From positions 1,960,001 through 2,024,000 of the forward strand of contig NZ_AP026801.1 of NCBI RefSeq assembly GCF_033095965.1: a stretch of 64,000 nt of DNA. The letters are read 5' to 3'. The position numbers and the translations under genes are program-made. Of this stretch, positions 6,274-35,776 are shown one piece after another; position 1 is the first letter of the stretch, and each line of letters starts with the position of its first letter. The notes beneath the pieces are model-generated. The model saw only the letters and a list, made by a program, of their open reading frames with translations, was not told where the DNA came from and searched no databases. The DNA is from Xylocopilactobacillus apis (GTDB taxonomy: Bacteria; Bacillota; Bacilli; Lactobacillales; Lactobacillaceae).

Positions 6274-6464
6274 TTTTATCCTCCCAAATCGTAGTTAGCA
6301 TAATCTTACTACAGATTACATAATACCAGGATTTTTATGCTTGAAATATCAAAATAATAATAATTTTTCTTTAGATTTGATAAAACGTTCATCACTATCA
6401 TAACAGATTTGATTATTTTTCTCATTAAAAAACTCAAAGATTTTATTTCACAATCTTTAAGAAT

Positions 6465-7634
6465 TTATTTTCTTTTTTTCATTGCCTTTTGTTGAGCTTT
6501 AAATTGTTTTTTCTGTTCACGCATCATTTGTTTAAATTGCTTTTTCTGCATGCCATCCATGTTCTGAGGAAAACCAGCATTACTTTCTTGACGTCCTCGT
6601 CCACGACCCATAATAAAGAATAAAGCAAATGATAAAACTAGTAACAAAATCCCGATAACAATTGCTAAAATGATGATCCATAAATAACTTTTCTTAATTG
6701 AAGGATTATATTTGTTAATTAAATCTGCTTGAGTTGGCGAGATTGTGTAATCACGTGAAAATTTAAAATTTCGAGTTGCAGTCTTAATTTTCAAATCTAA
6801 ATGATACTTTCCCGGAGTAATTCGTTTGTTCGCTGGAAACATGATGGGATACGTAAAAATCGTATTAGGTGCAATTGTCCCCGAACTCACTTTTCCAGTA
6901 GCTCTAATCTTTCGGTCCTTTTTAAGATAAGTTGTCGCTTTGGCGCTTACTGTACTTCCAAATCCCATTGAAGTATTTCGTAAAGTAACTCCCGCTGCCG
7001 GATAACCACTATACAAAATTGCCTTAATTCCTGATATTTTTAGATTGGGAGTAACCTCGGTTTCCTGATCTTCTGTCATTTTAACTGCTATTGCGTAATT
7101 GAGATAATTTTTTAACTTCATCCCTGTTTTTCCGCTTTGATTTCTTTCAACATTTTGAGCATTTACATCGCTTACATAGATGCCACCAAGAACGATCCCC
7201 TTAAAAGGTTTTTTCGGAACCGTAAAATCCAGAGGCACTACTAATTTGCTATTGGGTCTTAGCTTAATAGTCTTTGGAGTAAAGCCAAAACGAGAAAAAT
7301 CATATTTTAGCGATTTATCCTTATCCTTACTCTTAATCTCACCATCATAATTGGTATCCATAAAAGAAGTCGTTGCCGCAGTGGTTGCTAAAACTCTAAT
7401 TGTTTTTGTTTCATTTGAGTTGTTATTGACCTCAATAGATAAACTTTGTCGCTGTCCTGGAACCACAGTTAAATCAAAATAGCCCTTAACCGCAGGATTT
7501 TGATTTTTGGGAGGTATTGGTCTAATAGAATACCCTCCATTTGTATTATTTGCCGCAAAAGCTGGAATTTCATTGAATACATTAAAAACTATTCCTATAA
7601 ACAAAATTAAAAATATTTTTCTTGCTTTTCTCAT
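6465..7634 (-). CDS. DUF916-DUF3324 WxL-interacting membrane protein with long basic tail
   Basis: CscA-type protein of 389 residues: signal peptide to about residue 28, DUF916 (GYFDLTVVPGQRQSLSIEV; PFKGIVLGGIYV), DUF3324, and a transmembrane helix near 322-345. The cytoplasmic tail is unusually long (about 45 residues), Lys/Arg/Gln/Met-rich, with repeats such as KKQFKQMMREQKKQFK. Its ATG overlaps the stop of the upstream DUF916 gene by four bases (ATGA), so the two are translationally coupled. Two DUF916 genes in direct succession without a WxL gene between them suggests a local duplication. Confidence 0.86.
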   Translation of the reverse strand: MRKARKIFLILFIGIVFNVFNEIPAFAANNTNGGYSIRPIPPKNQNPAVKGYFDLTVVPGQRQSLSIEVNNNSNETKTIRVLATTAATTSFMDTNYDGEIKSKDKDKSLKYDFSRFGFTPKTIKLRPNSKLVVPLDFTVPKKPFKGIVLGGIYVSDVNAQNVERNQSGKTGMKLKNYLNYAIAVKMTEDQETEVTPNLKISGIKAILYSGYPAAGVTLRNTSMGFGSTVSAKATTYLKKDRKIRATGKVSSGTIAPNTIFTYPIMFPANKRITPGKYHLDLKIKTATRNFKFSRDYTISPTQADLINKYNPSIKKSYLWIIILAIVIGILLLVLSFALFFIMGRGRGRQESNAGFPQNMDGMQKKQFKQMMREQKKQFKAQQKAMKKRK

Positions 7635-29725: not shown

Positions 29726-30502
29726 TTAGTGGGGCATGATAAATTTATCAACTGAATTAAATTGACTATAAGTGATTTTCCCGTCATATTTAATCTGTGA
29801 CTTGTTTGCATCTTGTAAAGTGATTTGATAAGTAATCTTCTCAGGTCTTAACGTCTGATGGTCAAAAGTTGCTTGATACGTAAAATTTTTCACTTGATCC
29901 TGATTTAACGCTGCATTAAAAATAGCTGGAGATTTTAATGTGTTAATTGCCAAAAGATCGCCAATTTGATTTTTTATTTGACTGACATTGCCTTTAAAAG
30001 TAACTACGTAATCTTTACCTTGACGGCTCAATTTTAAATCTTTTGCCGAATTTTTAAAAATTGTATCTGTCACATTAGATACTCGCTGAAACATTGCTTT
30101 TGAATCTATCTTTTGAGATTTAAGGTCATTAGAAGTCCATGAACTGCCTGAAAGCTGATAAATGTTTTTCTGATCTAAATAAGCCGTTTGGGAAGTCCCA
30201 GCTCCTTTATTAGTCGTTTCATCAGTAACAACCTGAATATTAAGAGGCTTTTTAAGGTAGGAACTTGAGTTTTGGTCAATTACCTTGTTATTACCCTCAC
30301 TCAATTGAACCTTACTAACAACATGAAAACTTTTTAGTTTAGATTCTGCAGAGCTGCTTTTAGCAAGAACCTCTGATAAATTTAATTTCTTTTGTTCAGA
30401 AGCACTTTCACCTTTTGAGCTGTTACTTGAACAGGCACTTAACCCCAAACTTAAAAACGCAAGCCCCGCAAATGCATAATATTTAATCGATTTACTTTTC
30501 AC
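29726..30502 (-). CDS. Secreted lipoprotein, DUF6612/LppX-like
   Basis: About 258 residues from GTG 30502, preferred over an upstream in-frame codon because AAAGGAA lies about 10 bases before it and a normal signal peptide follows. The lipobox is LGLSAC followed by a Ser/Lys-rich linker. The remainder is beta-rich, with repeated T-x-x-Q-T/TYQ patterns seen in LppX/DUF6612-type lipid-binding-like lipoproteins (FHVVSKVQLSEGNNKV; YQATFDHQTLRPEKITYQI). Ligand unknown. It is downstream of the GH25-epimerase unit on the same strand. Confidence 0.75.
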   Translation of the reverse strand: MKSKSIKYYAFAGLAFLSLGLSACSSNSSKGESASEQKKLNLSEVLAKSSSAESKLKSFHVVSKVQLSEGNNKVIDQNSSSYLKKPLNIQVVTDETTNKGAGTSQTAYLDQKNIYQLSGSSWTSNDLKSQKIDSKAMFQRVSNVTDTIFKNSAKDLKLSRQGKDYVVTFKGNVSQIKNQIGDLLAINTLKSPAIFNAALNQDQVKNFTYQATFDHQTLRPEKITYQITLQDANKSQIKYDGKITYSQFNSVDKFIMPH

Positions 30503-30572
30503 TAAATAAAAATTCCTTTCCCTTATAAAATAAAAAACGCATCTACTACCATAAGCCAAAAAGACTTATTTG

Positions 30573-31230: not shown

Positions 31231-32388
31231 TTAAGCTCCTGGATTTAATTTGGTAAAACCGTTCGGATTAGTGGTATATTTGGCCTGAATCCACTGATTT
31301 TTTCCTAATTGATACCAATATTCACCATTTACCTTCACCTGAGCAATTATTTTCCAATCACTGCCGTCAAGTAAATATCGCCCTGTGGGTTTACGCGTAT
31401 AAACATCATAACCATTCCAAAGGGTAATTCCGTAACCTGAAATATAATTAATCGTCGCAATTGGTGCCCCGTTCGGATTACTATTAGGATAGACAGTTCT
31501 TACATTTGAGTAACCTTTGGAATTAGAGGTGTATTTTGCTTGAATCCACTGATTATTGCCAACCGCATACCAATATTCACCTTTATATTTGGCTTGAAGC
31601 ACTACCTTCCAGGAAGTCCCATGTTTCAAATATTTACCTGTTTGTTTGCGCGTATTTAAATCATAGCCATTCCATACCACAATTCCATAACTAGGACGGT
31701 ATTTAACAGTTGTTACTGCTTCATTAGATCTAATTTGATTGGTAAATAAACCGCCATAATCGTAACTAGCATCAACGTGCAGTCCTTTAAACTGGTTTGT
31801 ATACTGCCAAGCAGTAATATTGGATAATCCTGGAGTCGTTACGTTATAGTGTGCAACCCAGGTTGGATAGTTACGCGGAAGTTTATTGTACCAAAACCAA
31901 GAAGCCATCGAGTACACAACTTGATTATGATAACCAAGACGTGCTAATTCTTGTTGGAAAGTAACCGTATCAGCGTAAGGATTTTTAAGACTTGCATGTT
32001 CGACATCAGCCACCATGACCGTATCTTTACTTAAGCCATATTTTTGAGCCTGAGCAGCAAAAAATTGAGCTTCAGCTTTAGCTCCAGCTGCTCCGTTATA
32101 TTTAGCATAATGGTAAACACTGACTTTTAAACCGCGATTCCAAGCAGCTCTAATCTGGTTTCCTGCTTTTGGATTCGTATAATTAGAGGGTCTAGCATTG
32201 CCCCCTGTGAGCTTAACTACTACACCCGTAATGCCATAATCAACCAGCTGATCGATAAATCCCTGCGTATCTGGCTGCCATTCAGATACGTCAACAAATT
32301 GACTAGCTGCTTGAGTATTAACTGTATTAATTCCTAAAACTGCTATTAACAATAACAGCAGTCTAGATAAATGATATTTACGCTTAAT
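31231..32388 (-). CDS. Secreted GH25 muramidase with two C-terminal wall-binding repeats; probable ATT start
   Basis: Hydrolyses the glycan backbone of peptidoglycan. A signal peptide (IKRKYHLSRLLLLLIAVLG to NTQAA) precedes a GH25 domain of about 190 residues: VDVSEWQ, the DxE pair in VADVEHASL, and AAWNRGLKVSVYHYAKYNGA are visible. Two repeats of about 75 residues end the protein, each with WNGYD-x2-TRK-x-TG-x-YL and GEYWY-x2-G-x-NQWIQAKYT, resembling SH3-like/SLAP cell-surface modules. An in-frame ATG at 32424 lies in the probable -10 box and has no Shine-Dalgarno. A perfect AAGGAGG (32403-32397) sits eight bases before the in-frame ATT at 32388, which I take as the likely start; product about 385 residues. 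Confidence 0.85.
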   Translation of the reverse strand: MKRKYHLSRLLLLLIAVLGINTVNTQAASQFVDVSEWQPDTQGFIDQLVDYGITGVVVKLTGGNARPSNYTNPKAGNQIRAAWNRGLKVSVYHYAKYNGAAGAKAEAQFFAAQAQKYGLSKDTVMVADVEHASLKNPYADTVTFQQELARLGYHNQVVYSMASWFWYNKLPRNYPTWVAHYNVTTPGLSNITAWQYTNQFKGLHVDASYDYGGLFTNQIRSNEAVTTVKYRPSYGIVVWNGYDLNTRKQTGKYLKHGTSWKVVLQAKYKGEYWYAVGNNQWIQAKYTSNSKGYSNVRTVYPNSNPNGAPIATINYISGYGITLWNGYDVYTRKPTGRYLLDGSDWKIIAQVKVNGEYWYQLGKNQWIQAKYTTNPNGFTKLNPGA

Positions 32389-32422
32389 TTTTGGTTCCTC
32401 CTTGACGAATAGTCTATCTTCC

Positions 32423-32467
32423 ATTGTACTAAAAGTAAGTATTACTGTTCATTACAATTCGTTAACA
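32423..32467 (-). promoter_or_regulatory. GH25 promoter with WalR-type box
   Basis: On the minus strand TGTTAA-CGAAT-TGTAAT (32467-32451) is a perfect match to the WalR consensus TGTWAH-N5-TGTWAH. Downstream are TGAACA (weak -35), 17 bases and TACAAT (32428-32423) as -10. The box lies directly upstream of the -35, an activator position. Confidence 0.72.
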
Positions 32468-33624: not shown

Positions 33625-34305
33625 TTAAAATCCTAATTTGCTTAACCATTCATCAACATCTTTACGAGATTGTTCAGCTGCTGTCCCTTCTACAGCTAAC
33701 CCGTCAGAAATTTTTGCTTTAGGAAATTGATTCTTTAATGTTTCCTCGGTATCACCCATGCCAGAACCTTTATGTGTTACAAACGGAAAAACATTTTTAT
33801 TATTTAACTTAACATTATCTAAAAACGTCCGTACAACCATTGGATAGCCGCCCCACCATATTGGTGATCCAATAAAGATATTGTCATACTTATTTACATC
33901 AGGTAATTTATTTTTTATTTTTGGTCTCGCATCATCTTTCTGTTCTTTTTCTGCTTGATCAGCTGTTGCTTGAAATCCTTTTGGGTAATCTTTTGCTGGA
34001 ATAATTTCATAGACATCACCACCAATTTTTTGATGAATGAAATTAGCAATCACTTTAGTATGCCCTACTTTTAGCGGTCCATCAGAAACACCATCTTTTC
34101 TTGAAAAATAAACAATTAGATTTTTTCCTTTTTTACTAACCGTTGGCTTTGCAGTCTTGCTTGATTGAGAATTGTTGCTGTTAGATGATCTCGAAGATGA
34201 TTTAGAACTGTTTTTTGAACTACTCCCAGAGATAACATTATAACCAATAAATACTGCTATAACAGCGATAACTACAACGATAAAAGCGATAATTCTTTTT
34301 TTCAT
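33625..34305 (-). CDS. Membrane-anchored, probably extracytoplasmic flavodoxin
   Basis: 226 residues. MKKR precedes one transmembrane helix (IIAFIVVVIAVIAVFIGYNV). A 30-residue Ser/Asn/Lys linker follows, then a flavodoxin_4-type FMN domain: the phosphate loop YFSRKDGVSDG, FIGSPIWWGGYPMVVRTFLD (the tryptophan flavin loop) and VTHKGSGMGDTEETL. There is no lipobox or cleavage site, so it should stay anchored, and the positive-inside rule places the flavodoxin outside. AAAGGAA precedes the ATG. It is divergent from the flavocytochrome reductase and shares symmetrical promoters with it, suggesting a joint electron-transfer role. Confidence 0.83.
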   Translation of the reverse strand: MKKRIIAFIVVVIAVIAVFIGYNVISGSSSKNSSKSSSRSSNSNNSQSSKTAKPTVSKKGKNLIVYFSRKDGVSDGPLKVGHTKVIANFIHQKIGGDVYEIIPAKDYPKGFQATADQAEKEQKDDARPKIKNKLPDVNKYDNIFIGSPIWWGGYPMVVRTFLDNVKLNNKNVFPFVTHKGSGMGDTEETLKNQFPKAKISDGLAVEGTAAEQSRKDVDEWLSKLGF

Positions 34306-34378
34306 TAATTAATTCCTTTCAATTCTTTTTACTACAAGCAAATTAGATATATCTACTATATTCACTTGTTTGTCGACC

Positions 34379-34455
34379 AGTATACAGGCTAGTGTATAGG
34401 CGAAGGCAAGAGTTTTCTAAAAACTTGCCTTAGACCCTACTTTAGGCCTTATAGT
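34379..34455. promoter_or_regulatory. Back-to-back divergent promoters with 19-bp spacers (MerR-type architecture)
   Basis: Plus strand: TTGCCT (34425-34430), 19 bases, TATAGT (34450-34455), reading into the reductase gene. Minus strand: TTGCCT (34409-34404), 19 bases, TATACT (34384-34379), reading into the flavodoxin gene. The two -35 regions form the perfect inverted repeat AAGGCAAG...CTTGCCTT (34403-34410/34424-34431). A partial dyad GCCTTA/TTTAGGC (34427-34432/34441-34447) lies across the plus-strand -35 and spacer. Overlong 19-bp spacers with dyads are characteristic of MerR-family activator promoters. No merR gene is in the window. Confidence 0.72.
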
Positions 34456-34483
34456 TCTAGTAAATATATAATTGAGAGGATTT

Positions 34484-35776
34484 ATGTTTAAAAAATATCC
34501 GCTGGCTTTATATTTAACTTGGTTAATAATTCTTTTTATTGTTCCCCTGCCGTTAGTTTTCTTATTAAATACTGGTTTGTTAGATTCACCAAGTAATTTA
34601 TTAACATATGATGCTGGTGTTGCTGCTTATACATGGTGGCTAACAATCATCTTTTTATCAACTCGTCCACAATGGCTAGACCGACTTATTGGAATTCCCT
34701 CAATGTATTTTATCCATGGGATGATCGGCGTTCTCGCTCTAGGATTAGCCTCTTTTCACGTCTTAAATGCATTTTCGATGGGAACACTTATTAAAAATCT
34801 TGGCAATACTGCATGGTACTTGTCAATTTTTAGTGTTTTGTATGCAGCATTTTTCTTATCTGGCTGGCTGGTTGATCATTTCTCGCTTGCAGCGAAAACT
34901 AAACAAAAATTACAATTTATATTCAAGCATCAAATTTCAATCTGGATTCATCGAATAAATTTTATTGTTATCGGGTTAATTTGGCTCCATGTCCATGTGA
35001 TTGTTCGAATCAATCGAATTAGTAGTTTTATGATTTTGTTTGATCTTTATACGATTGTTAGTCTTAGTTTATACGGCTGGAAGAAATTTGTCGCCAGTGC
35101 TGCAGATAGCATAAACGGTCAGGTTATTAGTAATATTTCTGTAAATTCACATGTGTATCAGCTCAAAATAAAATTGAACCCTCACGCCAAAAAATATCGA
35201 GCAGGAGACTTTTACTTTTTATCTTTTAGGAACGTTTTAGGAATAAGCAGTGAACCCCATCCATTTTCTGTTACTTATTCACCAACGAATACTCCAAATC
35301 TTGTTACTTTCACAATTCAAAGTCATGGTGACTTTACCAGCAAATTAGGAGCCATTCCTATTGGCAGTGATGTTAAATTAGAAGGCCCTTTTGGCCGTTT
35401 TTCTTCAATAATAGAGGCTGCTTCGATTGAACAGCCATTGGTTTTTATCGGAATGGGAACTGGAATTGCGCCGCTTCTAAGTCTAACTCAGCAATATTTT
35501 AAAACTCATAAAATTCATGTTCTATGGAGTGCCCATAATTCTACTGATTTCTACTATCAACAAGAATTTAATAAATTGGTTCCGAAGATTACTTATGAAC
35601 AGCATTTAAGACGATTTACCAAAACTGATTATCAAAATAAATTAACTGAAAAGGAATTTTCTTCTGGATTATTTTTTATCGTTGGACCTGCTCCCGGAAT
35701 AATTGCTACAGAAAAGGCCTTACACCAACTTGATGTCAAACGCGCTCAATTAATTGATGAAAGACTAACAATGTAA
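34484..35776 (+). CDS. Ferric-reductase-like transmembrane flavocytochrome with FAD/NAD domain
   Basis: 430 residues from ATG 34484 (GAGAGG just upstream). About six transmembrane helices lie in residues 1-210. Two helices carry spaced histidines suited to bis-haem ligation: IHGMIGVLALGLASFH (H-x13-H) and IHRINFIVIGLIWLHVH (H-x12-H). The C-terminal half is an FNR-like module: HPFSVTYSP for flavin and GMGTGIAPLLSLTQQY for NAD(P). This is the ferric reductase/NADPH-oxidase layout, moving electrons from cytosolic NAD(P)H across the membrane. Its divergent partner is an anchored flavodoxin. A haem requirement would be noteworthy in a lactic acid bacterium. Confidence 0.82.
   Translation: MFKKYPLALYLTWLIILFIVPLPLVFLLNTGLLDSPSNLLTYDAGVAAYTWWLTIIFLSTRPQWLDRLIGIPSMYFIHGMIGVLALGLASFHVLNAFSMGTLIKNLGNTAWYLSIFSVLYAAFFLSGWLVDHFSLAAKTKQKLQFIFKHQISIWIHRINFIVIGLIWLHVHVIVRINRISSFMILFDLYTIVSLSLYGWKKFVASAADSINGQVISNISVNSHVYQLKIKLNPHAKKYRAGDFYFLSFRNVLGISSEPHPFSVTYSPTNTPNLVTFTIQSHGDFTSKLGAIPIGSDVKLEGPFGRFSSIIEAASIEQPLVFIGMGTGIAPLLSLTQQYFKTHKIHVLWSAHNSTDFYYQQEFNKLVPKITYEQHLRRFTKTDYQNKLTEKEFSSGLFFIVGPAPGIIATEKALHQLDVKRAQLIDERLTM

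Follow-up and report, generated by a model that had tools for sequence, protein, structure and literature searches.

In a 64,000-nucleotide stretch of Xylocopilactobacillus apis DNA (NZ_AP026801.1, positions 1,960,001 to 2,024,000; hereafter the window), part of a single-contig genome of 2.27 Mb, a gene for a membrane-anchored flavodoxin lies back to back with a gene for a transmembrane reductase. We consider it probable, at roughly three chances in four, that the two proteins form a two-component chain for outward electron transfer, running from NAD(P)H over flavin adenine dinucleotide (FAD) and two haems to a surface flavodoxin with flavin mononucleotide (FMN) and on to an extracellular acceptor. 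A sequence-only reading of this DNA had suggested such a pair, and the suggestion is now supported by the linkage of the two genes, by the mirrored trees of their products, by the exchange of an FMN_bind protein with ApbE for the flavodoxin, by the fold shared with SpNOX and by export signals on linked flavodoxins. That the two genes keep company in many bacteria points to a dedicated path that would carry electrons outwards to a protein instead of to oxygen.

In the proposed chain, cytosolic NAD(P)H would reduce the FAD of the reductase's dehydrogenase domain, and electrons would cross the membrane over an inner haem (H78/H156) and an outer haem (H92/H169), which would pass them to the FMN of the flavodoxin. 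The latter, anchored to the outside of the membrane through its N-terminal helix and a flexible linker some 35 residues long, would hand them to an extracellular acceptor, for which the earlier reading had named metals, flavins or quinones as candidates, and would take the place held by a flavinylated FMN_bind protein beside sister reductases. Electron transfer itself we infer from the features described below. Both genes were recovered where the earlier reading had placed them, with the following features (positions in the window):

33625..34305, minus strand: anchored Flavodoxin_4 protein, 226 residues (PF12682, 92 bits; structure model)
34243..34299, minus strand: codons of the anchor helix, residues 3-21 (model and sequence)
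34126..34230, minus strand: codons of the Ser/Lys-rich linker, residues 26-60, 16 Ser in 35 (model and sequence)
34063..34101, minus strand: codons of residues 69-81, insert between strand 1 and helix 1 (no SGA[ST] core)
34306..34483, no strand: intergenic region between the divergent genes (sequence reading)
34484..35776, plus strand: NOX-like transmembrane reductase, 430 residues (FAD_binding_8, NAD_binding_1; pLDDT 93; SpNOX Z 35.8)
34484..35107, plus strand: six-helix membrane domain, residues 1-208 (model)
34715..34717, plus strand: His78, predicted inner-haem ligand (analogy with SpNOX H69)
34757..34759, plus strand: His92, predicted outer-haem ligand (analogy with SpNOX H83)
34949..34951, plus strand: His156, predicted inner-haem ligand (analogy with SpNOX H129)
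34988..34990, plus strand: His169, predicted outer-haem ligand (analogy with SpNOX H142)
35006..35008, plus strand: Arg175, six residues C-terminal of H169, candidate partner-specific residue (alignment comparison)
35108..35773, plus strand: dehydrogenase domain, residues 209-430, C-terminal end DERLTM (model and alignment)

A NOX-like reductase and an anchored flavodoxin

The reductase probably starts at the ATG at 34484, directly preceded by GAGAGG, rather than at the TTG at 34472 given in the list of open reading frames (ORFs). Its FAD_binding_8 and NAD_binding_1 (PF00175, 30 bits, cut-off 22) matches both lie above the Pfam cut-offs, and for the membrane part no Pfam family, PF01794 included, matched at E values up to 0.01. 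An AlphaFold2 model built from a 45-sequence alignment (predicted local distance difference test, pLDDT, 93) shows six membrane helices followed by a C-terminal dehydrogenase domain, and its three best structural matches are full-length entries of SpNOX, the NADPH oxidase of S. pneumoniae (Z 33.0 to 35.8), the best of them extending over 383 residues with a root-mean-square deviation of 2.9. For the dehydrogenase domain, the flavodoxin reductase of E. coli is a structural match (1fdr, Z 23.7). Two histidine pairs, H78/H92 with 13 and H156/H169 with 12 intervening residues, lie in helices 3 and 5, in agreement with the published NOX definition of two His-X12/14-His pairs in these helices; they match the SpNOX haem ligands H69, H83, H129 and H142 in order and are invariant in all 45 aligned reductases, the window's included. 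The FAD motif of NOX enzymes, H[PSA]F[TS][LIMV], is present as HPFSV at residues 259-263. By analogy with SpNOX, the protein is predicted to bind two haems; the bis-His helices and FAD/NAD module that had been read from the sequence are borne out by the invariant histidines, the Pfam matches and the model.

The flavodoxin begins with MKKR and continues with a single hydrophobic helix and a linker rich in Ser and Lys, followed by a Flavodoxin_4 domain (PF12682, cut-off 24 bits). In its structure model, pLDDT is below 50 at residues 26-55 and between 91 and 98 per block over the domain (residues 61-226), and the helix at residues 3-21 together with the 16 serines of the linker corresponds to the membrane anchor and Ser-rich spacer proposed earlier. 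The nearest solved folds of the domain are Bacteroides flavoproteins (4j8p, 4ici and the FMN-bound 3klb), and the protein is predicted to bind FMN without a covalent bond.

We considered that the window flavodoxin might be flavinylated covalently and ruled this out, as the motif is missing and the genome has no ApbE. The protein has an insert between strand 1 and helix 1 without the SGA[ST] core; its sequence, DGVSDGP, recalls the beginning of a flavinylation motif but ends without the acceptor Ser/Thr, and relatives vary there. A loose motif match (NVISGSS) lies at the end of the anchor, outside the insert. The SGA[ST] core occurs in 29 of 32 FMN_bind-type proteins versus one of 57 flavodoxins, in which it stands outside the insert, and the strict motif D..[ST]G[AS][ST] was found in none of the 57. 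ApbE gave no match in the window's genome (G000), G050 and G278; six of the nine genomes with the pair do have it. The FMN_bind domain is absent from four of the nine genomes with the pair, the window's among them, and neither FMN_bind nor ApbE lies beside the window pair.

Linkage of the genes and exchange of the partner

In a sample of 151 Lactobacillaceae genomes (match threshold E 0.001), 39 had a reductase match and 76 a flavodoxin match, and all nine flavodoxin matches above 150 bits adjoin a reductase from the same clade as the window's; the one in G121 is a broken gene. The window's genome holds three flavodoxin-reductase pairs, the two others with the flavodoxin directly upstream on the same strand, and an order-wide search added linked loci in G227 and G278. 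When named genomes were scanned with the reductase alignment alone, 23 of the 25 loci obtained (five of them contigs already seen) had an adjacent flavodoxin. The pairs from named genomes belong to Bacillota (Companilactobacillus, Oenococcus, Limosilactobacillus, Lapidilactobacillus, Agrilactobacillus, Furfurilactobacillus, Streptococcus, Gemella and two Lactobacillus sp.) and to Actinomycetota (Alloscardovia, Streptomyces, Actinoplanes, Actinomyces, Micromonospora, Curtobacterium, Kocuria and [Pseudopropionibacterium]), the latter phylum being reached only through this alignment-based pattern scan; an earlier contig scan with a single protein as query gave no matches. In a phylum-wide sample no match at E 1e-25 was found in 347 genomes besides the window's, and the remaining Bacillota finds are confined to Lactobacillales and Gemella.

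Merging of five duplicate records (L127, L134, L136, L138 and L149) left 29 linked loci in Lactobacillales, Gemella and Actinomycetota; near-identical loci were kept (L060/L061, L133/L135, L062/L137), so that independent cases are fewer than 29. The pairing goes beyond chance, as three pairs occur in the window's genome and the genes stand side by side at 29 loci. The flavodoxin lies upstream on the same strand at 23 loci, downstream on the same strand at three and in convergent orientation at two, and the sole divergent pair is the window's own. Conserved neighbours had been expected to be divergent: the linkage holds, whereas 26 of the 29 pairs share a strand and divergence as a conserved feature was ruled out (1 of 29).

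Two further loci were noted in the course of these scans. Limosilactobacillus reuteri WF-AA1-C (L131, 2101-6293) encodes, with no flavodoxin in the vicinity, a reductase that shares 48% identity with that of the window; the protein upstream carries PepSY domains, two-component regulator genes are also present (judged by sequence starts), and the PepSY protein is possibly a third kind of reductase partner. At L058 a single ORF (6452-7165, minus strand) begins like a flavodoxin, with anchor and first strand, and runs into a reductase FAD/NAD domain, as if the rest of a flavodoxin-reductase operon had been deleted.

Profile-based classification of 55 reductase neighbourhoods showed a flavodoxin beside the reductase in 11 and an anchored FMN_bind protein plus an ApbE gene in the flavodoxin's place in 24 (in L068 ApbE is split into two ORFs and in L108 the FMN_bind ORF is short). 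Five more have an FMN_bind-like gene next to the reductase, one has FMN_bind and ApbE close by, and 14, mostly with distant or partial reductases, are without a recognised partner; the Pfam check of the FMN_bind and ApbE assignments covered two proteins of each. In a tree of 41 of the 57 reductase rows (left out were fragments and a number of redundant or distant rows, and four long ORFs were trimmed to the C-terminal 435 residues), the flavodoxin-linked reductases form one group (support 100/99, present in 200 of 200 bootstrap trees), whose sister clade carries the anchored FMN_bind protein and ApbE. FMN_bind is found in the sister group and in four outgroup rows, which makes a single exchange the simplest history; most simply, a flavinylated partner was replaced by a flavodoxin without flavinylation motif, a direction that depends on the midpoint root. 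The locus family thereby offers a natural experiment, with one reductase family and two kinds of surface flavoprotein.

Distances in the reductase and flavodoxin trees were correlated over 24 of the 29 pairs (L067, L142, L144, L145 and L147 dropped for broken or doubtful frames), with r 0.759 against a maximum of 0.604 in 2000 permutations, a value partly raised by shared species descent. Both trees also share groupings that span phyla, for example Alloscardovia (Actinomycetota) together with Streptococcus and Gemella. The reductases also differ according to their partner: every flavodoxin-type reductase compared (23 of 23) has Arg at position 175, and every FMN_bind-type one (19 of 19) has Tyr. 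At position 428, where SpNOX has its C-terminal aromatic gate, the former mostly have L, I or M and the latter F (19 of 19). Among the top 43 partner-discriminating positions, 12 lie on the outer face, compared with 67 of 404 overall (p 0.034, a weak signal in hand-drawn zones, used here only to name Arg175), and 21 lie in the dehydrogenase domain, not above expectation.

Side of the membrane and competing explanations

The linked flavodoxins carry several types of export signal. A twin-Arg motif plus a lipobox pattern opens the sequence in Streptomyces, Actinoplanes, Micromonospora, Curtobacterium and Actinomyces sp. ZJ308. In Limosilactobacillus alvi, oris and balticus the start resembles a signal peptide and ends in VQA or AQA ahead of the domain. 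Overall, 26 of the 29 linked flavodoxins have an in-frame N-terminal hydrophobic or lipobox start, and L105, L145 and L147 have a comparable stretch upstream but out of frame. Second flavodoxins with a lipobox occur in seven clusters (L062, L065, L106, L129, L130, L137 and L144), and two of three Cyclophil_like2 proteins have one as well (L062 and L064, read by eye). From these patterns on linked or neighbouring flavodoxins, the window flavodoxin is probably tethered outside the cell, an orientation that for the protein itself is a prediction. Further exported flavodoxins and Cyclophil_like2 proteins were seen in clusters L065 (8476-9450, minus strand), L062, L063 and L064; the window's own genome encodes a single lipobox protein in which a flavodoxin and a Cyclophil_like2 domain are fused.

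Several observations weigh against an outward chain of this kind. The window flavodoxin, of the anchor type, has neither a lipobox nor a clear cleavage site, and the charge bias around its anchor is small (3 versus 2); among linked relatives, L066 shows no bias, and L062, L132 and L064 a reversed one (the start of L064 is doubtful). Export signals were judged by pattern and by eye, which we also count on this side. ApbE proteins of the sister type (L046, L070, L072 and others) show neither a signal peptide nor a lipobox, which makes it less certain on which side their FMN_bind partners lie; the more distant ApbE of L120 has a lipobox, and in the sister type flavinylation may take place in the cytosol before export. 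In the reductase, the published NOX NADPH motif is missed at one position: the second residue of GTGIAP is Thr, because of which we call the protein NOX-like and not NOX. Ferrochelatase and cytochrome bd subunit I are absent from the window's genome, and haem would therefore have to come from outside; in all, five of the nine genomes with the pair are without ferrochelatase. In the other three sampled genomes of the genus neither gene was matched (two of these genomes are only 85% complete), and the pair is therefore patchy. Lastly, two of the 25 reductase loci have no neighbouring flavodoxin, L131 with its PepSY protein and L148 with a partial match.

The small charge bias, the cytosolic appearance of sister-type ApbE and the resemblance of the dehydrogenase domain to E. 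coli flavodoxin reductase would fit a flavodoxin domain on the inner face, serving there as partner of the FNR-like dehydrogenase domain in the manner of cytosolic FNR-flavodoxin pairs. We hold this arrangement to be very improbable, as linked flavodoxins have twin-Arg/lipobox and Sec-type starts and lipobox flavodoxins occur in the same clusters; moreover, with the electrons already inside, the conserved haem path would be left without use. The reductase could also be a stand-alone oxidase or ferric reductase, with the flavodoxin as a separate surface protein under shared regulation. In line with this, passages of the SpNOX papers report reduction of O2 and cytochrome c by SpNOX alone in vitro; yet its authors doubt iron and leave room for a physiological acceptor other than O2, and tight linkage, mirrored trees and the exchange of one flavoprotein for another would not be expected of independent proteins. 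We judge independent action unlikely, if less so than a flavodoxin facing inwards.

More credit, still well short of even odds, is due to the possibility that the flavodoxin is an end enzyme, a surface quinone or electrophile reductase recharged by the NOX-like protein and serving detoxification. As this would be compatible with the outward chain, the odds of the two overlap. Quinone reductases appear in the list of flavodoxin folds, at low TM-scores, and clusters elsewhere encode an aldo/keto reductase (L066), a cupin and a carboxymuconolactone decarboxylase family protein (L126) and esterases (L126 and L133). Against this, the nearest solved relatives are flavoproteins labelled putative, the neighbours vary by locus, and none of these families was among the window neighbours scanned. 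The esterases belong to PF00756, have hydrophobic starts and lie inside the flavodoxin-reductase clusters; the cupin and decarboxylase family genes of L126 are in its cluster as well.

Relation to known systems and further features of the locus

The outward routes known from Gram-positive bacteria include that of Ndh2 and PplA, in which the quinone-linked Ndh2 serves a flavinylated PplA and whose components include an FmnB-type ApbE and EetAB. Both there and here electrons would leave a Gram-positive cell toward a surface flavoprotein. The earlier claim that the window pair departs from this route is supported: the path proposed here leads from NAD(P)H over haems to a flavodoxin, and the window's genome lacks FMN_bind domains and ApbE.

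With SpNOX and the bacterial NOX-like proteins the window reductase has in common its predicted fold over the full length, with six helices, the two His pairs of helices 3 and 5 and a C-terminal FAD/NAD(P)H domain. It differs in sequence (about 20% identity) and in its C-terminus DERLTM, which lacks the aromatic gate of SpNOX (F397); excerpts of the SpNOX papers (PMC5676040, PMC11031084 and PMC11564096) describe this residue as gating FAD, with F397S raising turnover and weakening flavin retention, and state that SpNOX reduces iron only slowly in vitro. The Discussion section of the cryo-EM paper allows that a protein acceptor may exist (PMC11564096). Such an acceptor is merely suggested for SpNOX, whereas the window reductase is linked to a probably exported flavodoxin, and the pair provides a candidate protein acceptor for bacterial NOX-like enzymes, encoded next door, in lactic acid bacteria in which the question is testable.

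MsrQ-like flavinylation systems, according to passages of Meheust et al. (PMC8238504), are broadly conserved in Actinobacteria and infrequent elsewhere. They too encode a haem membrane protein with an NAD domain together with an exported flavoprotein, and the FMN_bind and ApbE genes of the sister clade resemble those described in these passages. In contrast, the window clade has a flavodoxin without flavinylation core instead of FMN_bind plus ApbE, and in the window reductase PF01794 was not found and PF00175 was.

Flavodoxins had been taken as normally cytosolic, a claim that needs narrowing, as exported Flavodoxin_4 proteins are already known: excerpts of Huang et al. (PMC11334425) describe ApbE-flavinylated members whose acceptor Ser/Thr sits in an insert that follows strand 1 and precedes helix 1, oppose flavinylated exported to unflavinylated cytosolic members, and link some to DUF4405 cytochromes. 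The window protein shares the Pfam family, the probable export, the insert and the link to a predicted haem membrane protein; it differs in that the flavinylation core is absent, ApbE is absent in three of the nine genomes with the pair and the partner is a NOX-like reductase, not DUF4405. What is unusual is that motif and machinery are missing here. The window group looks exported and unflavinylated, which would place it outside the published contrast and cut against it. In the literature searched, mostly at the level of titles and abstracts, no description was found of a NOX-like reductase linked to an exported unflavinylated flavodoxin.

The twin-arginine translocation (Tat) pathway exports folded proteins. 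With somewhat better than even confidence, we propose that a NOX-type clade in Gram-positive bacteria recharges an extracellular flavodoxin with dissociable FMN rather than making superoxide, that it arose by exchange of a covalently flavinylated partner, and that the Actinomycetota flavodoxins are loaded with FMN and exported folded by Tat. If true, the pair would be the extracellular counterpart of the cytosolic FNR-flavodoxin pair.

Relatives with 31-37% identity were seen on plasmids in at least 20 records from Lactiplantibacillus, Levilactobacillus, Pediococcus, Leuconostoc and Nicoliella, several of them from beer or breweries. Near the pair, the window encodes a DUF6612 protein (29726-30559) and a GH25 protein with SlpA domain matches (31231-32424), for which no link to the pair was seen, and promoter-like sites are near chance level. 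The divergent intergenic region contains an inverted repeat, AAGGCAAG/CTTGCCTT, at 34403-34410 and 34424-34431 with 13 bases between, which was read from the sequence, is absent from the repeat-finder listing and may be an operator.

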